NCBI GenBank assembly: GCA_030694985.1
Contig: JAUYTV010000020.1
Span: forward strand, 1 to 64,000
DNA length: 64,000 bases
DNA from: Methanoregula sp.
Lineage (GTDB): Archaea; Halobacteriota; Methanomicrobia; Methanomicrobiales; Methanospirillaceae
Direction of reading: 5' to 3'
Below the pieces are notes generated by a model, which had not been told where the DNA came from, did not search any database, and was given only the letters and a program-made list of their open reading frames with translations. The stretch's first letter is position 1, and each line of letters begins with the position of its first letter. Both the position numbers and the translations under genes were made by a program. Positions 838 through 30,525 of this stretch are shown one piece after another.

Positions 838-1536
838 TTACTTCTTTTTCATGATAGCCGCACCCGCGCCGAGCAACACGGCAAGAAATACTGGTGCAGG
901 GGGAAGTGGGGCTTTTGTTGTCGGCTTTGGTGTGACGGGGACCGCAGTTGGCGGCGTTGTCAACACAGTCGGGGTGGGTGTAGCGGTGGGTGTCGGTGAA
1001 GTTATATCGAGCGCCGGTACCTGCTCTGAAGAGTGCATCTCGGGGTTGAGCGTGTACGTTGCCTGGCTGCTGCTTGCTATACGTGAGGTTGTGGATTTTT
1101 TTAAGTAGACTTGCAGGGTCTTGTAGGAACCTGAACCGCCAAGGTTGGCTTTGTCAACCGGCGAAGTCGTTACATAGACAAGGAACGTCCCCCCGGCTTT
1201 GATCGAGTTCTCAATACGGGCCGTGTTCCAACGGTAGGACCACTCCTGTTTACTATCCAGATCGATCTGGGTGAACTTCCCCTGGTCAGCCCGCTGGGTC
1301 ACATCGGTTAGAGTAACCCCGTTCTCCGGCAGACCCGGGCCGGTCATGAAGAGGTACACGCTGCTACCGGTGTAGGACACACCTTTGAGATTCAGGGTAT
1401 CTCCGAGATCGGCTTCGATATTTGCATCCGCTGCAGAGACGGGAAGGATCATCATTGCAGCAAGCAAGCAGGTAAGGAGAAGAACGGTATACCGGCAGGT
1501 ACCGGATCTCTGGACGAAACGGGTCAATTCAATCAC
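838..1536 (-). CDS. secreted cell-surface protein, S-layer-module type
   Basis: 232 residues, starting at a GTG. The N-terminus has a hydrophobic signal segment (about residues 16-36) ending in PVSAADA. A single globular module of about 110 residues follows, containing YLFMTGPGLPENG, a tryptophan pair WSYRW and GTFLVYV. The same module, with MFITGPNLPTRG, WSWKW and GTYTIYA, occurs in the large S-layer-like protein at 34.4-37.4 kb, so the two are related. Next comes a Thr/Pro linker (TPTATPTPT...) and a C-terminal hydrophobic anchor ending in KKK. This is the layout of an exported protein fixed to the membrane by its C-terminus, probably glycosylated on the linker. Exact function unknown. Confidence 0.8.
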   Translation of the reverse strand: MIELTRFVQRSGTCRYTVLLLTCLLAAMMILPVSAADANIEADLGDTLNLKGVSYTGSSVYLFMTGPGLPENGVTLTDVTQRADQGKFTQIDLDSKQEWSYRWNTARIENSIKAGGTFLVYVTTSPVDKANLGGSGSYKTLQVYLKKSTTSRIASSSQATYTLNPEMHSSEQVPALDITSPTPTATPTPTVLTTPPTAVPVTPKPTTKAPLPPAPVFLAVLLGAGAAIMKKK

Positions 1537-1619
1537 TGAATAGAAAATAAACTGCCGGTGGGTTTATAGATTTGTGCCCGGAATATCACCGGTTATAAAT
1601 TCGGGCGGTCAAATATTAG

Positions 1620-2255
1620 ATGAGAACAATGGTCATGTTAGAATCTGCAGAAAAAAGAAACGTGCTTATGGAAAAGAACCGCATGGAATCCTTAACTGAT
1701 GGGATCTTTGCGTTTGCCATGACCCTGCTTGTCCTGAACATGATCCTCCCTAGTGATGCAGCCATAACGCAGACTTCCAGTGCAGCACTCTTATCCCTGC
1801 TCCCTGCTTTTTACCATTATATCATCGCATTTTTTATCCTTGCGGCATTCTGGATGGGCCATCATGCGCAGTTCAACCAGATCCATCACATTGACAAGAA
1901 TTTCCTGTTCCTGAATGCGATTGGTCTTTTTTTTGTCACGCTTGTCCCATTTTCAACCAGTTTCATCGGAGATTACTCATCAGATATTCTCGCTACCTGT
2001 CTTTTTGAGTTTAATCTCCTGATTCTCGGTCTGGTTCTTGCCTTCCAGTGGTATTATTCGAGCCACAACCACCGGCTCATATCCCCGGAATTATCTCAAT
2101 ACGATATACGACTCCGGATGAACAGAAGTCTGGTCATACCGGCCATTTCCCTTGCGGCGATGATACTCACCGTGATAGGCTTTTCGAGCAGTTCCATGTT
2201 GTATATGGCATCACCTCTTGTCTCGTATTTCGTGGAGCGGTATACACAAAAATAA
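1620..2255 (+). CDS. TMEM175-family (DUF1211) potassium channel-like protein
   Basis: 211 residues with about six hydrophobic segments. The first helix carries MESLTDGIFAFAMTLLVL, which matches the conserved FSDxxFAIAxTLLVL signature that lines the pore in the TMEM175/DUF1211 family of prokaryotic potassium channels. A TATA-like TTATAAAT at about 1593-1600 lies 23 bases before the ATG, which fits a leaderless transcript starting at this codon; an internal ATG at 1668 sits closer to the family's usual start. The gene is monocistronic and divergent from the surface protein at 838-1536. Channel activity is inferred from the family, not shown. Confidence 0.85.
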   Translation: MRTMVMLESAEKRNVLMEKNRMESLTDGIFAFAMTLLVLNMILPSDAAITQTSSAALLSLLPAFYHYIIAFFILAAFWMGHHAQFNQIHHIDKNFLFLNAIGLFFVTLVPFSTSFIGDYSSDILATCLFEFNLLILGLVLAFQWYYSSHNHRLISPELSQYDIRLRMNRSLVIPAISLAAMILTVIGFSSSSMLYMASPLVSYFVERYTQK

Positions 2256-22368: not shown

Positions 22369-23424
22369 CTATTTTTTGTAAAATTTTCCCAGGTCTTCTG
22401 GAAGCGTCATGATTACCGGTTCAAGGTGGAGCCGCTCCATGAATGCAGAATCGCTTGTGGATGAAGGGTTGGGGTTGATCCGTGAGATCATGGAACAGAA
22501 CGCCCGGAATCCATGGTCATTTTCGCTCTTATCAAAAAAAATGGACATATTGAACGCATGGGTTCCCAGTTCCCGGTATAATGCGATGATCTCAAGTATG
22601 CCCCGCGCTGCGAGATCCACGTAGTCTTCCATTTCGTCCAGTGTGGAGATGGGCAGTAACCCCCGTACCTCGCGCTCACCTACCGGTACCGCATGGGCAG
22701 ACCAGAGAATCTCATCCCCGAACAGGTAACGATCAGAGGAGCGTTCCTGCTCTCTCACAACATCCCAGTAGTTCCTGCCCTCTTTTTTTCGGTACTGCTC
22801 ACTTGCAGCGAGATACAGGTCAGCAATACGGGACGGATGGGAGTCTGAAAGCCCCTGCATGTGGGGATGTACAAGACTTGCACCAGCAGATGGCAGGAAG
22901 TTCCAGTTGATGCTGGGATATCCATCAAACTGCTGTAGTGCCTCGATCTGCGAGAGTAGTGCATCCACCACCTGTTGCCGTGAAAAAGAGACGACCGCGT
23001 GTTCATGGGTCATAACAGTTACCACATGGCCTTCACCGAAAGGAAAGAGGTTGGGAAACGTGACACTTTCGCCACGGATGATCCGGTTGCCATTGGGAAA
23101 TGTGGGGGTAACAGTCATCACAGCATCGCAGCAGAACGGGCAACCCACGGCATTTGAAGGAAGATAAAGTGACTGATCGATCTGCCGTTTTAACCGGTCA
23201 GGACTGATCCTGCACCTGAGTCCGGTGTGGTGCTCCTCGCGATATTGTAGTGTGCCCCTGCTGGTGACAACTTCCCTGACAGAATACATGCCTGTTAAAG
23301 ATAATATTTCCGGCAGGAACTGATAGTCGTTTGCACTGCGATCTGTTGACCGTGGGGATTGTTGTAAAAGTGTGCAGTCCGATCCTGATGCGGGATTTTT
23401 CTTTTTTATAAGGTTGGAAAACAC
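22369..23424 (-). CDS. galactose-1-phosphate uridylyltransferase-like (HIT superfamily) protein
   Basis: 351 residues. The GalT-type nucleotidyl-transferase motif appears as GASLVHPHMQ, with the His-Pro-His of the covalent uridylyl intermediate (family HPHxQ). A CPFC pair near residue 95 fits the zinc site of GalT enzymes, and the strand WNFLPSAG precedes the motif. The substrate may be a sugar-1-phosphate other than galactose; archaeal members are poorly studied. It is convergent with mtd and probably monocistronic. Confidence 0.75.
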   Translation of the reverse strand: MFSNLIKKKNPASGSDCTLLQQSPRSTDRSANDYQFLPEILSLTGMYSVREVVTSRGTLQYREEHHTGLRCRISPDRLKRQIDQSLYLPSNAVGCPFCCDAVMTVTPTFPNGNRIIRGESVTFPNLFPFGEGHVVTVMTHEHAVVSFSRQQVVDALLSQIEALQQFDGYPSINWNFLPSAGASLVHPHMQGLSDSHPSRIADLYLAASEQYRKKEGRNYWDVVREQERSSDRYLFGDEILWSAHAVPVGEREVRGLLPISTLDEMEDYVDLAARGILEIIALYRELGTHAFNMSIFFDKSENDHGFRAFCSMISRINPNPSSTSDSAFMERLHLEPVIMTLPEDLGKFYKK

Positions 23425-23639: not shown

Positions 23640-24626
23640 CTATACTACGTATTTGCCGAGGAGGCGGATGGAGTTGGTCATGTCTGGACCAAGGGGTGAA
23701 CCGAAGATAATCTGGGTGACACCGGCCTTGGTTAAGTCTTCGCATTTCTGCTTGACCATTGAGGGGGTTCCTGCAATGGTGAATGCATCGATCTCTTTGT
23801 CTCCAACGAGTTCTCCAACCGTTTTGAAGTCGAACTTTCCAAGTGCATCTTTAATCTTTGCAACATTGGCAAGGTCGAGGCCGTGGCGGGTGAGGAGGTC
23901 TGGCGGTGAGCCGGCTGCAATGAATGCGGCAACAATCTTTGCTGCATTGCGGGCCTTCTTCTCGCTCTGGTCAATTGACATTGCAGTGTATGCACCGATA
24001 TCAAAGTTCTTCTTGCCGACTTTGTCAGCTGCTGCCTTGATGATCGGGATTGCAATGGCAAAGTCCTTGGGGTTGGATGCGTTGATCAATGCACCGTCGC
24101 CGATTCTTCCGGCGAGGTCAAGAACCTTGGGGCCCTGTGCACCGATGTACATCGGGATACCCTTCTTTCCGGGCAGGGTGACACCGGTCAGCTTTGCACC
24201 GTCATAGTCAAAGAACGTCATTCCTGACTTCTTGACTTCTTCACCGGCACAGAGCTTGCGGATCTGGACTACGGCTTCCTCGAGGCGTCCGACTGGTTTA
24301 TCAGGGCTGATTGCCAGCTTCGGGAGCGTGGAGAGGTCACCGGGACCAATACCGAGGACTGCACGTCCATCGGAGATCTCATTCAGTGTGCAGGCAAAAG
24401 ATGCCATTGCAGCGGGCGTATCGGTAAACGCATTCATGATACCCGGACCCATCTTAAGTGACGTGGTCGCCTGCGCGATGGCCGCGAGGGTGGGGTAGCA
24501 GTGACGGTTGTTGTAGTGGTTAGTGATCCATGCGAAATCTATGTCTTTGGATTCTGCAAGTTTACAGAAGTTGACAACTTGCTTTACATTGACATTTCCT
24601 GGTACAAATTCAATTCCATATGTCAA
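23640..24626 (-). CDS. mer: F420-dependent methylene-tetrahydromethanopterin reductase
   Basis: 328 residues, normal for Mer, a luciferase-like TIM-barrel enzyme that reduces methylene-H4MPT to methyl-H4MPT with reduced F420. Diagnostic segments: TYGIEFVPGNVNVKQVVNFCKLAE, FAWITNHYNNRHCYPTLAAIA and LGIGPGDLSTLPKLAI. The start codon is TTG (TTG ACA TAT GGA), supported by a strong SD GAGGTGA seven bases upstream and by the family N-terminus MTYGIEF. It is transcribed alone. Confidence 0.97.
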   Translation of the reverse strand: MTYGIEFVPGNVNVKQVVNFCKLAESKDIDFAWITNHYNNRHCYPTLAAIAQATTSLKMGPGIMNAFTDTPAAMASFACTLNEISDGRAVLGIGPGDLSTLPKLAISPDKPVGRLEEAVVQIRKLCAGEEVKKSGMTFFDYDGAKLTGVTLPGKKGIPMYIGAQGPKVLDLAGRIGDGALINASNPKDFAIAIPIIKAAADKVGKKNFDIGAYTAMSIDQSEKKARNAAKIVAAFIAAGSPPDLLTRHGLDLANVAKIKDALGKFDFKTVGELVGDKEIDAFTIAGTPSMVKQKCEDLTKAGVTQIIFGSPLGPDMTNSIRLLGKYVV

Positions 24627-25083: not shown

Positions 25084-27402
25084 ATGAGAATACTGGCAAT
25101 CGGACTTGGAGGTGCAGGATGCAGGATCGCAAACAGCCTGTATGCTGTAGACCGTCGCAGCAGCAAAGTGGCTTGTGTCCAGGCATTTGCTGTAGATGTC
25201 GATGATACTACCTTATCGCAGCTCAAGGGCCTGCCTGAAAATTCCAAGATATATTTCCCTGCGCTGGACCCCGGACCCGCGGATGCAACAGGAGATAGCA
25301 CCCAGACTGCAACGATCGATATAGGTGAGGTTCTCTCCAGAGTCCAGAACGTTGATCACGGAGAGACCGATGCGATCTTCATCTGCCTGGGGCTTGGCGG
25401 AAGCATGGTGGATGTGGCACCCCATATCATTGCAGCTCTCAGGAACTCCGTTGTGGAGCCAATATTTGGCCTCGTCACGCTTCCCTGCCTTGCTGAAGGT
25501 GAGCGGAAGTCTGCAAAAGCCGCAGATGATATCGATATGCTTTCATCCCTGCTCGATGGCATTATCCTTTTCGATAACGAGACGTGGTTTAAAAAGATCA
25601 GATCACAGAAATCCACACTGGCAAAAAAAGAGAAGAGTTTTGCAGAAAAGATGGGCTTTGTAAAAGAGCAGCCTGTACTATCTCCAACGCTTGCAACCTA
25701 TCTCCTGTTAAACGATGCGATTGTAAAGAGGATCAGTCTTATCCTGCGGGCAGGGGAGTTCAAGGCAGACGGGGGTCTTGAACTCGCAGAAGTGGTGCTT
25801 GATTCCGGTGAAGTTCTCAATACAATGAAAGGAATGGGCTTTATCACCATAGGTTATGCTGTTGAACACCTTCCCCGCGATCCAATGGGTTTCCTTTCAT
25901 GGCTGCGACCTGCGGCAATTTCAGCCGACCATCACAATAAAAGAGCCTCACGTCTCGTTGAGCTCGCAAAGCAGGCAATATATCACGAGATTTCAACACC
26001 GTGTGACATGACCAGTGCCCACAAGGCGCTCATCCTCATTGCCGGGCCATCTCATGAACTCTCTTTAAAAGGGTTCATGACCGTCCGCAAATGGATCGAC
26101 CGCAGCATTGCCGGGCTTGAAACCCGATCCGGGGATTACCCGGTGGTGAATACACAAAATGTTGCGATCATCATCATGCTCTCCGGCCTTGAAAACATTC
26201 CCCGTATAGATGAGATCCGGGGAATCCGTGCACAGGGCAGAACAGGTTATCAGAAAGAGTCGGATAGTGAGATCGAATCCATCTCCCTTGAAACCATCAC
26301 CGTGTCAAAGGGTTCAAGAAACTCAGCGGGCCCGGAGGCTGTCTCTCAAAAACAGGTAAAAAGACAATCGCGGGAAGAGGGGATTGCTCTTCTTGTAAAG
26401 GAACCCACGGGCAGGGATCCTGGTGCGCATTCTCCGGTTGCGCGTCTGCAGACCCCTGAGAGTCCTGCAGAAATCCCCGTGACCATAAAAAAAGGATTGA
26501 CGGGTGCAGAGTATCTGCCATCAGCAGGTACTCAATCAACAACAGCGGGTATGCAGGAGAGAACCGCACCGCATCGTGAGTTGAGGGGAAAAGAGCCACA
26601 ACACCGGGTTGTTGCCCGGCAGGAACACGAGGCTCAAACCCATCATACTACCCCGGTACACCATCCCAGGTCGCACACAACATTACACCATGATGCACCG
26701 GCATCAGGTACAAAAGTGCAGGAACCGGCAAAAGAGGCAGGAGTCCACATCAGTGACAGCCAGATACGGACGAAGGATACCGAGCGCCAGAGGATAGAAA
26801 AAGATTTGCAGAGGCAACGGATGAGTGCCATCTCCGGCCGAACACTCAAGACAACTACTGACATTCTGAAAAAACCGGTTACCATGCCCGGACGTGCTGT
26901 CATCTCAGAGGAATCGCCCACTGAGTTACCCCAAACCCGCGTGCAGGTGCAACCCCGAACGGTTCCAATCGTAGAAAAACCCACTGAACAACGAACAGTC
27001 ATCATTGGAAAACGAAAGATTCTGCCCATAGAGCAGAAGGACATCGATACGGGAGAACAGGTTGTAGAAGAACCCGTGGTGCGTGAGGAGGAATTTTTTT
27101 CACCGGGCCCTGTAGCCGATGCACCCGAAGCAGACTCTGATGAGATGAAAGTCAGCGTGAAAGATCCCAGTTACCGGGCAAAGGATGAGATTTTTGGGGG
27201 AAAGAACGTTTTGCGCACAGCAGTTCCACAAGCAAGGGACTCAGGACTCATCCATACCAGTCTCGCACAGAAAAAGAGTGGGCCGGGAATGGGGGATGAT
27301 AATGAAGATAAATTGCAGGAAGAGACCGCCACAGGACAATCACAGACAAAGGGTAAAAAAAGGAATATCACCACAAAAAAAGATGATTTTTCATGGATCT
27401 GA
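25084..27402 (+). CDS. divergent FtsZ/tubulin-superfamily protein with long disordered tail
   Basis: 772 residues. The first about 385 follow FtsZ element by element: nucleotide-binding loop GLGGAG (7-12); a T4-like loop GLGGSM (103-108) followed by APHIIAAL where FtsZ has APVIA; VTLPCLAEGERKSAKAADDI (131-150), the T5/T6 region (FtsZ VVTKPFxFEGxxR); DGIILFDNE (158-166), like FtsZ IPND; and a T7-like loop VLDSGEV (238-244) keeping an acidic pair D240/E243 where FtsZ has NxDFADV. MGFITIGYA and LILIAGPSHELSLKGF match the end of the FtsZ core. About 387 low-complexity residues follow, rich in Pro, Gln, Thr, His and charge, ending in KKDDFSWI. It is not a normal FtsZ (T4 is degenerate). It stands alone between mer and nrpR. 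GTP binding and polymerisation are inferred. Confidence 0.8.
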   Translation: MRILAIGLGGAGCRIANSLYAVDRRSSKVACVQAFAVDVDDTTLSQLKGLPENSKIYFPALDPGPADATGDSTQTATIDIGEVLSRVQNVDHGETDAIFICLGLGGSMVDVAPHIIAALRNSVVEPIFGLVTLPCLAEGERKSAKAADDIDMLSSLLDGIILFDNETWFKKIRSQKSTLAKKEKSFAEKMGFVKEQPVLSPTLATYLLLNDAIVKRISLILRAGEFKADGGLELAEVVLDSGEVLNTMKGMGFITIGYAVEHLPRDPMGFLSWLRPAAISADHHNKRASRLVELAKQAIYHEISTPCDMTSAHKALILIAGPSHELSLKGFMTVRKWIDRSIAGLETRSGDYPVVNTQNVAIIIMLSGLENIPRIDEIRGIRAQGRTGYQKESDSEIESISLETITVSKGSRNSAGPEAVSQKQVKRQSREEGIALLVKEPTGRDPGAHSPVARLQTPESPAEIPVTIKKGLTGAEYLPSAGTQSTTAGMQERTAPHRELRGKEPQHRVVARQEHEAQTHHTTPVHHPRSHTTLHHDAPASGTKVQEPAKEAGVHISDSQIRTKDTERQRIEKDLQRQRMSAISGRTLKTTTDILKKPVTMPGRAVISEESPTELPQTRVQVQPRTVPIVEKPTEQRTVIIGKRKILPIEQKDIDTGEQVVEEPVVREEEFFSPGPVADAPEADSDEMKVSVKDPSYRAKDEIFGGKNVLRTAVPQARDSGLIHTSLAQKKSGPGMGDDNEDKLQEETATGQSQTKGKKRNITTKKDDFSWI

Positions 27403-27411
27403 TCGAAGGGA

Positions 27412-28365
27412 TCAGTTGGTTTCCATCACTTTTGAGAACTGGATATTTCCGGCTCCTATCTCTGTTTTAATCTCAATGCCGTGCTCAACCGTATTTCCAA
27501 TATAATTCAAACCGCTGAAGGCAACAATCGAGAGCCGGTAGGGATTGTTGGGTAAATTAAAGACCTGCGTTCCCAGCCCGACAGGAAAGATAAAGCCGCA
27601 TTTGTTCATCTGGTGAATGGTCTCTTCCACCTGTGATTTTGCTGCGCAGGGAACTTCGCGGACGTTTGCAAGTGCAATGCCGGTTTTTGTCCGGGCGAAA
27701 CTGGAAATGGAGGTAAGTCCTGATGAGATAAAGAGTTCCAGCGGATCGATGGTTGTTCCACGGTAGCCGATCAGATCCTTAAAGCGCCGGGGCGTGCCCT
27801 GTTCGATCTCCAGTGTTCCGCCAAATGCCATCTTGACCGGTATTCCCTTTCTCTGGAATACGCCATCCATGGAAATACTGCAGATGGTTATGAAACCTGC
27901 CGATCCATGAGGGATCCGGGGATCGCGATCGATTATCCGGTAGGATTTGAAAAATCCACAGCCGGATTTTACCACTTCATCGAATGCTGCAGTAACCTTT
28001 TCTAAGGACTCTGCAGGCACAATAGAGAGATTATATGCCACATCTCCGGTGCCGGTCTCCGGATCAAACGTGCTCCGGTACGCAAGCCGCTCAAGTTTTG
28101 ATATGACAAACCCAATCCTGTCGTCAACAAGAGCGTTGTCGGTCTCATCCCGGCCAAGAGGTGTTAATAATCTTCCCAGGTTTCCAACCTTCTCGGTAAA
28201 TCCCATTGTGTCGAGATAGCTGAGATAATACTGGACTGCACGGTCACTTAAGACAAAACCCCGGTCTGCCATAAGTTCTGAAAGGCGTTTTGCACCCACC
28301 GGTTCGCTGTGCTCTTTTAATATTCTTAAAATTTCGATATATTTTCTCTCGGTACGTATCACCAT
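27412..28365 (-). CDS. nrpR: NrpR-type transcriptional regulator (DUF128)
   Basis: 317 residues. An N-terminal winged helix (ERKYIEILRILKEHSEPVGAKRLSELM) is followed by one NrpR effector domain (DUF128), seen in VAYNLSIVPAESLEKV, GFITICSISMDGVFQRKGIP and YRGTTIDPLELFISSGLTS. In methanogens NrpR represses nitrogen-fixation and glutamine-synthetase genes and is released by 2-oxoglutarate. Some species have one protein with two effector domains or two partner proteins; here only one domain is present, so a partner elsewhere is possible. The start shares one base with the dcd stop, so the two are one unit. Confidence 0.85.
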   Translation of the reverse strand: MVIRTERKYIEILRILKEHSEPVGAKRLSELMADRGFVLSDRAVQYYLSYLDTMGFTEKVGNLGRLLTPLGRDETDNALVDDRIGFVISKLERLAYRSTFDPETGTGDVAYNLSIVPAESLEKVTAAFDEVVKSGCGFFKSYRIIDRDPRIPHGSAGFITICSISMDGVFQRKGIPVKMAFGGTLEIEQGTPRRFKDLIGYRGTTIDPLELFISSGLTSISSFARTKTGIALANVREVPCAAKSQVEETIHQMNKCGFIFPVGLGTQVFNLPNNPYRLSIVAFSGLNYIGNTVEHGIEIKTEIGAGNIQFSKVMETN

Positions 28366-29130: not shown

Positions 29131-30525
29131 TTATATTTCGTTCCTTCTGATGCCATGATGCCGCTTTCTCTTGTGACCAATCATCCTGATGACCGCAAAC
29201 AGCACAAGAATGCCCACAATCCCTGCTGCAATAGTGGCTATAAGTCCCCAGTCCAGGCTCTTTTCCAAAGTGAGAGTGGCTGAGGCTGTTGCATTCCCCG
29301 AAACGACTTGTTTCTGGATAGAGGCAGGCTGGTAACCATCCTTTGATGCGGTGATATTGTAAGGGGTATTGAAATTCAGTCTGGTATTGTACTGCCCGCG
29401 ATCATCAGTCATGCCAAGAACATTGCCATTGACATAGATGCTGGCATTTGGAACAATCTTCTGCTCATTGTCCTTGACAAAGAGGGTGAGAACAGCATTT
29501 TCAAACGGCATCACGAACATATAATCTTCATTAACGTTTGATACCTGGATCGGGCGGCTCACCGTCACATACCCTGCTTTCCTGATCTCAACCGGGTACG
29601 TTCCCGATACTAAGGTTGGGGATGTGCTGCGTCCGTACTGGTTGGTACTCCCGAGCAAATTGCCATTGATATATACATCCGCACCACTGATCGCTACACG
29701 GTTTTCATCTACAACAAAGATAAACGCACCAATGGGGGCTTTGGTGATTTCTACGGAATAGATCGCATCCGCATCACTGATGATTCGGGATTCCGTATAA
29801 GTCTGGTATCCGGTCTTACTGATCTCAATGGTATAGGAATTTCCGCGGGTAACAGGTATAACGAGCCTTCCTTTGGCATCAGTCTTTCCCACAAGTGCTG
29901 AATTGATACGCACTTCTGCGTCAGGAAGCGGTGCCTTTCCATTCTTGTCTTTGATTTCAATAGCAAAGCGGTTCCCCGGAAGCAGCCAGTACTGGACGTC
30001 CCGGTTTTCTAATGCCATATCTATCGTAGTACGGCGAGGCTGGTAGTTGGCTGCTTCAATATTCACAGAATAAAGGGTTGATGCAGTCACGCCAAACAGT
30101 GCAGAGCCGGAGATCTCCGTCTGCTTTCCCATTGTCACATTTTCTGCAGAAATATTTACAAGGGCTCCAGAAACCGGCACCAGAGTGTCTGAGTCAAAAA
30201 GACTCACTTTAAGGGTGAGTGTTTTTCTGCTCAGGTTGACCAGGAGGGCTGTTTCATTTCGGCTTACCGTTTTTACCCAGTCATCATAACCGGTCTTTGA
30301 GACCACGATTTGTAAGTCATTCAATCCGGAATGTGTTAGGTACACCTGACCAAGGGTATTTGTCCGGGCAATGTTGCCGCCGTTAAGAAATACCGTGGCA
30401 TATGGGACAGAGGAGTTGTCGATATTGTCCTGCACAGATATCTGCAGGTTCGTTGCCTGAACAGAGCTGCAGAGAAGGATCACGCACAGCAGAGCAAAAA
30501 GGAAACGATGCCTTTGACTATACAT
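29131..30525 (-). CDS. membrane-anchored PEGA/carboxypeptidase-regulatory-like repeat protein
   Basis: 464 residues. A signal peptide (FLFALLCVILLCSSVQA) is followed by four to five beta-sandwich repeats of 70-90 residues, each built on xVPYATVFLNGG or AGADVYINGNLLGST-like strands and ending in a glycine-tyrosine pair (KTGYxxW, KAGYVTV, KDGYQPA). These are PEGA or CarboxypepD_reg-like modules of surface proteins. A C-terminal membrane helix (IATIAAGIVGILVLFAVIRM) and a basic tail anchor it. Probably a cell-envelope protein; ligand unknown. Confidence 0.85.
   Translation of the reverse strand: MYSQRHRFLFALLCVILLCSSVQATNLQISVQDNIDNSSVPYATVFLNGGNIARTNTLGQVYLTHSGLNDLQIVVSKTGYDDWVKTVSRNETALLVNLSRKTLTLKVSLFDSDTLVPVSGALVNISAENVTMGKQTEISGSALFGVTASTLYSVNIEAANYQPRRTTIDMALENRDVQYWLLPGNRFAIEIKDKNGKAPLPDAEVRINSALVGKTDAKGRLVIPVTRGNSYTIEISKTGYQTYTESRIISDADAIYSVEITKAPIGAFIFVVDENRVAISGADVYINGNLLGSTNQYGRSTSPTLVSGTYPVEIRKAGYVTVSRPIQVSNVNEDYMFVMPFENAVLTLFVKDNEQKIVPNASIYVNGNVLGMTDDRGQYNTRLNFNTPYNITASKDGYQPASIQKQVVSGNATASATLTLEKSLDWGLIATIAAGIVGILVLFAVIRMIGHKRKRHHGIRRNEI

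Follow-up and report, generated by a model that had tools for sequence, protein, structure and literature searches.

In tubulin and FtsZ, the T7 loop of one subunit completes the nucleotide site of its neighbour. What is known of CetZ function comes almost entirely from Haloferax, and a regulator derived from a broken CetZ is not known to us. Archaea and bacteria also have other divergent members of the tubulin superfamily, FtsZl-1 and FtsZl-2 (Tubulin_2), reportedly described by Makarova and Koonin in 2010. In Haloferax, SepF has been reported to bind FtsZ2, and CetZs have been said not to be division proteins (PMC8187382); archaeal SepF binds the tips of FtsZ via a GID-centred motif (PMC8178401). 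In plants, ARC3, a chimera with FtsZ, negatively regulates assembly of the FtsZ ring (PMC5877594). According to the passages of Brown and Duggin (2023) on deep-branching CetZs, which mention a short M-loop, each Methanomicrobiales or Archaeoglobales genome has two CetZs, one Halobacteria-like and one deep-branching, and such pairs were suggested to be functional pairs (PMC9856176). Santana-Molina and colleagues found CetZ-like groups of unstable position in Halobacterota (PMC9871819), to which the protein studied here could not be matched.

The present report concerns the window, a 64,000-nucleotide stretch of contig JAUYTV010000020.1 from Methanoregula sp., and one ORF in it (25084-27402, forward strand, ATG start, stop included) that encodes a tubulin-superfamily protein of 772 aa, called X below. 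The closest named relatives also point to Methanoregula, with 97% identity to a Methanoregula sp. MAG. Residue conservation in X was counted over 82 aligned orthologs. The sequence facts on X are solid. X does not in itself make a new branch of the superfamily; it is a striking CetZ variant whose proposed mechanism can be tested.

Identity and fold of X

The first conclusion of this study, of which we are nearly certain, is that X is a divergent CetZ and not an FtsZ, and that it is CetZ-derived, ancient and order-wide. Its globular tubulin/CetZ domain (residues 1-385, 25084-26238), delimited by profiles, phmmer, an AlphaFold2 model and fold matching, is matched by Pfam Tubulin over residues 2-170 (45 bits, above the cut-off of that model) and by CetZ_C (PF21011) over residues 205-379 (25696-26220) with 140.6 bits against a cut-off of 21.6. 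By sequence, the nearest solved relatives are CetZ1 and CetZ2 of H. volcanii (phmmer E=2.4e-45 for CetZ1, 4b46), which are also the top Foldseek matches (4b46 and 4b45, TM 0.86 on the target) of the AlphaFold2 model of residues 1-385, built with 58 orthologs (pLDDT 83.6, pTM 0.84). X has in common with CetZs the two-domain fold, the CetZ_C domain, an AGE motif before T7, the VVDxxEhxNT signature of T7-H8 and the RxGDYP strand; compared with canonical CetZs it has an insert of ~30 aa after T6, and it has lost their T2 Asn, T3 and T4 (GGGTGSG) signatures.

In contrast to FtsZ1 and FtsZ2, X has a CetZ-type C domain, the FtsZ T4 signature GGGTGTG is absent from it, and its score with the FtsZ equivalog model (NCBIfam ftsZ), 38.7 bits, falls far below the cut-off of 295.2, which rules out an assignment to FtsZ1 or FtsZ2. 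The Tubulin_2 family is ruled out by the lack of any Tubulin_2 match at E<=10 in a Pfam search; with FtsZl-1 and FtsZl-2, X shares the status of a divergent tubulin-superfamily protein, but not this domain. An unrelated Rossmann fold is ruled out by the model and its CetZ1 and CetZ2 matches.

A preliminary description, made from the sequence alone, had placed X in the tubulin/FtsZ superfamily and had proposed structure prediction as a check; the Pfam matches agree with that placement, and so does the model, a tubulin/FtsZ-type fold nearest to CetZ1 and CetZ2. The motifs that it quoted are present, namely GLGGAG (residues 7-12), GLGGSM (103-108), APHIIAAL (112-119), EGERKSAKAADDI (138-150), LFDNE (162-166) and VLDSGEV (238-244), the last of which does contain the acidic T7 pair, D240 and E243. 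Its statement that X is "not FtsZ1, FtsZ2 or CetZ as usually defined" is right as regards FtsZ and wrong or incomplete as regards CetZ: the CetZ_C score, the CetZ-type T7 and the AGE motif put X on the CetZ branch, and it does not lie outside every named family. The description also overlooked the long tail, whose tip is FtsZ-like, and the existence of relatives beyond Methanomicrobiales.

Distribution and locus

Searches of Methanomicrobiales, another proposed check, gave a match at E<=0.001 in each of the 60 related genomes searched, and a C-terminal profile recovered both X and a canonical CetZ in 60 of 60 genomes of the order, as a rule in single copy, except that canonical CetZ is present in two or more copies in one genus. 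The genome that carries the window also encodes FtsZ1, FtsZ2 and one canonical CetZ, and these genes lie away from the X locus, as does that for SepF, which was found in 59 of 60 genomes of the order. Decay into a pseudogene is ruled out, the frame being open and conserved in the aligned orthologs with two exceptions. These are loci L100 (G312) and L029 (G030), where X is split over two frames in one and carries an in-frame TAA in the other, through sequencing error or recent loss.

As had been noticed before, X stands alone between mer (23640-24626, reverse strand; Bac_luciferase), from which it is divergent, and an nrpR-like regulator gene with NrpR regulatory domains (27412-28365, reverse strand; NRD1_2), with which it is convergent, both assignments being backed by synteny. 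The order mtd, galT-like, mer, X, nrpR, dcd recurs in most loci examined and in all six families, so the locus is old and vertically inherited, and a functional partnership of X with these metabolic genes need not be assumed. For the galT-like ORF (22369-23424, reverse strand), a name taken from its sequence only, Pfam gave nothing at E<=0.01, although its place between mtd and mer is kept throughout the order. On the other side of X, 29131-30525 (reverse strand) encodes a surface-type protein with carboxypeptidase-regulatory/PEGA repeats and a hydrophobic C-terminal stretch, which is also found at several related loci.

The nucleotide pocket and the T7 face

The second conclusion is that constraint in X is inverted relative to ordinary CetZs. 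Among canonical CetZs the N domain is the more similar one (68.7%, against 60.5% for the C domain), whereas X proteins compared among themselves reach 51.5% in the N domain and 63.0% in the C domain, and X compared with canonical CetZs reaches 28.2% and 37.4%, the C domain being higher in every pair. Among the canonical-invariant positions of T2, T3 and T4, 4 of 24 are kept in at least 90% of X proteins (0 of 2 in T2, 0 of 10 in T3 and 4 of 12 in T4); T7-H8 and the S9 (GDYP) strand together keep 13 of their 16.

Loop by loop, T1 (IGLGGAGCR, residues 6-14, 25099-25125) keeps glycines 7, 9 and 12 in all 82 orthologs. At T2 (25195-25203), the Asn of canonical CetZs (N37 in the CetZ of the same genome) has given way to D38-V-D40, with D38 in 81 and D40 in 73 of the 82. 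T3, KGHGVGxDN in canonical CetZs, is missing from its site (25252-25308), and T4 (GLGGSMVDVAP, residues 103-113, 25390-25422) is degenerate, as the preliminary description had seen, with GLGG retained and TGSG gone in every aligned ortholog. T5 (PCLAEGERKSAKAA, residues 134-147, 25483-25524) keeps its P, E and G, T6 (FDNETW, residues 163-168, 25570-25587) its D, N and W, and the Asn of H7 (N210) is kept as well. In T7/H8 (EVVLDSGEVLNT, residues 236-247, 25789-25824), the acidic pair D..E is followed by NT, as in CetZ, and is present in 81 (D240) and 80 (E243) of the 82 orthologs; ETRSGDYP (residues 346-353, 26119-26142) aligns as the counterpart of the canonical EVRGGDYP. By these alignments, the phosphate side of the pocket has been dismantled family-wide, and the face that would touch the next subunit's nucleotide has stayed.

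The earlier suggestion that X, having kept the catalytic pair, may hydrolyse GTP does not follow, because T7 serves the nucleotide of the next subunit and the phosphate site of X itself (T2, T3 and T4) is dismantled throughout the aligned orthologs. With T1, T5, T6 and the H7 Asn kept, X may still bind a guanine nucleotide weakly. We infer by analogy with tubulin and FtsZ that the T7 rule may carry over to X, so that its T7 would act in trans. The T7 residues could instead have been kept for folding, which is less likely given their near-complete retention beside a lost pocket.

Three other accounts of this pattern have to be weighed. X might self-polymerise without nucleotide, or with weakly bound guanosine or GDP, into a static scaffold whose tail recruits clients and membrane and whose T7 serves for contact only. 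An intact fold would suit this, as would the base/ribose side (E138 of T5, N165 of T6, N210 of H7) that is kept together with all T1 glycines, but the deleted T3 is part of the longitudinal contact of the superfamily, and the acidic pair, with no phosphate to act on, is nevertheless kept in 80-81 of 82 orthologs; we consider this account unlikely. It is improbable that the pocket has been rebuilt for another ligand, with D38/D40 and GxGGAG forming something like a dinucleotide or metal site of a Rossmann protein and X acting as a ligand-gated scaffold. The two Asps are new and conserved, not decayed, and X is set among genes for F420-dependent enzymes (mtd, mer); however, dinucleotide enzymes gave no profile or fold match to X, part of an Archaeoglobi-like group of relatives lacks the Asps, and synteny with mtd and mer may be plain vertical inheritance. 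Finally, X falls next to the CetZ branch and keeps T5, T6 and T7, as would an ordinary CetZ still able to bind and hydrolyse GTP with its unusual loops, but the absence of T3 and of the T4 TGSG from all aligned orthologs makes this a very improbable account.

Relatives outside Methanomicrobiales

In other families, a CetZ_C search detected a second, short protein in family f9 (6 of 6 genomes tested), which is probably Archaeoglobaceae, and in family f30 (2 of 2), and a joint profile found it across f9. These relatives of X, present in Archaeoglobi-like genomes and in a third lineage, are ~300-340 aa long and tailless. Their pocket is more eroded than that of X, with T3, T4 and T5 lost, and part of the Archaeoglobi-like group is also without the T2-site Asps; they keep EVV[VI]DTSDxxN, in which the T7 acidic pair is D..D. 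One short-group protein was modelled and has a CetZ fold (pLDDT 87.1), nearest to CetZ1 (TM 0.80). At the f30 locus L271, the short gene shares its strand with a canonical cetZ and precedes it by ~150 bp on the upstream side; this adjacency was seen in a single genome.

In a mixture-model tree, canonical CetZs, X and the short group each form one supported clade; the canonical clade (100/99) leaves X outside, and X is its sister (96/76). The tree, also proposed as a check, bears out the separate methanogen branch that had been suggested for X, a clade that lies beside the canonical CetZs. In the free tree the short group stands beside the FtsZ outgroup, apart from X, possibly as a long-branch artefact, and a tree in which X and the short group were held together was not rejected (AU p=0.384). 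A pair made of one canonical CetZ and one pseudo-CetZ may predate the split of several archaeal orders.

Two further observations concern other loci. L268 (G392) encodes, at 871-2058 (forward strand), another tubulin-superfamily protein of 396 aa with GGTGSS at T4 and an only marginal CetZ_C score. In the Halobacteria-type loci L125 and L118, CetZ frames are 615 and 726 codons long, the part upstream of the CetZ domain being probably open frame and not protein.

Set beside the pairs of Brown and Duggin (PMC9856176), the genomes studied here hold one canonical CetZ and one X or short relative each, and, from these counts and the tree, X and the short group are very probably the "non-Halobacteria-like" deep-branching CetZs of that paper, whose passages on them make no mention of pocket loss, tail or FtsZ-like tip. 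The family is thus probably contained in published CetZ trees; for the pocket loss, the tip and the tail repeats we found no description, nor did we find a described pseudo-GTPase CetZ in the open-access literature.

Tail, tip and repeats

The globular domain of X is followed by a low-complexity tail of 387 aa (26239-27399) with no Pfam domain. P, E, S and K are abundant in the tails of X proteins, which are 83 to ~570 aa long where present and are lacking from eight genera, with at least four changes between presence and absence on the tree. The tailless genera presumably include Methanospirillum and Methanosphaerula.

The best conserved stretch of the tail is its last residues (DDISWI, DGITWIR, SIDWIT, SINWIP, etc.), and the usual end, [ILF]-[STDN]-W-[IL], is FtsZ-like, unlike the ..[DE]PLF(E) end of CetZs. 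In the window X ends in KKDDFSWI (27376-27399), which by sequence comparison resembles the archaeal FtsZ tips EIDFLK and TLEWVG; with FtsZ1 and FtsZ2 of the same genomes, X proteins share a flexible linker and a tip composed of a hydrophobic, a small or acidic, an aromatic and a hydrophobic residue. Within the order, a single tip regex matched 28 of 30 FtsZs, 50 of 69 tailed X proteins (18 of 27 after clustering at 75%) and none of 39 canonical CetZs. Its stricter W form was found at 3 of 1640 background ORF ends and never within the tails (22,149 residues); when the 69 tails were shuffled, at most 1 had it. Most X tips have S or T in place of the D of the GID motif. Of the 69 tailed proteins, 19 lack the strict tip; 7 of these have near variants (among them DDFSWK, DDASWVR, IIFWIP, MLWL and LYFM) and the others have lost it. 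In several close, Methanoregula-like relatives (loci L012, L016-L020, L022 and L025), the long tail is kept and the terminal W peptide is missing.

A degenerate repeat, RPKD..F.G..[IV], occurs in many X tails and was counted 156 times over all of them, against 28 expected from shuffles. The window has two degenerate RPKD..F.G repeats by pattern search of the tail (RAKDEIFGGKNVLRTAVPQA and RDSGLIHTSL, 27175-27264), the full pattern occurring once in this tail, which for a single tail is not above chance, and no DNA-level tandem repeats were found in it. The tails at L043, L047, L048 and L054 have up to 11 copies of the degenerate ~16-aa unit, nearly identical in runs within a single protein.

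The tip raises the question of whether FtsZ, and not CetZ, is the target of X, which would then be an ARC3-like negative regulator of FtsZ assembly, acting either by taking up FtsZ ends or by using its FtsZ-like tip to compete for SepF. That the tip resembles those of FtsZ1 and FtsZ2 and not that of CetZ, that FtsZ1, FtsZ2 and SepF are present alongside X, and that ARC3 sets the precedent of an FtsZ chimera working against ring assembly (PMC5877594) are all in keeping with this. The lower face of X is CetZ-type, however, as shown by its CetZ_C and ftsZ scores, tailless orthologs exist, and the f30 relative is found beside cetZ and not ftsZ, so that we do not think it likely. ARC3 would be a functional analogue of X in that it regulates rather than builds a ring; it belongs to another lineage and has other extra domains, and X has no comparable fusion domain.

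Proposed role of X

With its own phosphate site lost, T7 kept and a canonical CetZ alongside, X is best read as a one-sided subunit that would derive from a CetZ paralog, and its CetZ-type lower face makes canonical CetZ the first candidate partner. X would be unable to hold GTP phosphates or to assemble with itself into an ordinary GTP-driven polymer. Through its T7 face it would dock where another subunit, in all likelihood canonical CetZ, exposes its nucleotide, and X would then cap the nucleotide-exposing end of the filament and stop its growth, stimulate hydrolysis at that end or copolymerise as a defective subunit. The long tail would reach SepF or another receptor of FtsZ tips and tie CetZ filaments to the membrane or the division site. 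The lost phosphate loops, the kept T7 and the FtsZ-like tip together suggest that X may cap or anchor other filaments and not form its own. We give this reading, in which a one-sided X acts on the nucleotide of CetZ, serves CetZ filaments as a cap or scaffold and has SepF as its tether, a probability of roughly 0.4, and all of it that goes beyond the sequence facts is what we infer.

Since tail and tip have been lost in several genera, the core role must lie in the domain, the SepF tether being accessory. Eight genera have no tail, and 19 of the 69 tailed proteins are without the strict tip, so SepF tethering cannot be the core function. We are more doubtful of the fuller proposal that X is an ancient CetZ-derived pseudo-GTPase, retained over entire archaeal orders, whose T7 caps or switches off CetZ (or FtsZ) filaments in trans and whose tip links them to SepF.

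With the activating face kept and the phosphate site lost, X allows one to test directly how filaments of archaeal tubulins are ended or anchored, and its FtsZ-like tip would connect CetZ physically to SepF-based division, which can be tested too. If the fuller proposal is true, X would be a dedicated filament-end factor made from the filament's own subunit, joining the tubulins of cell shape and of division.
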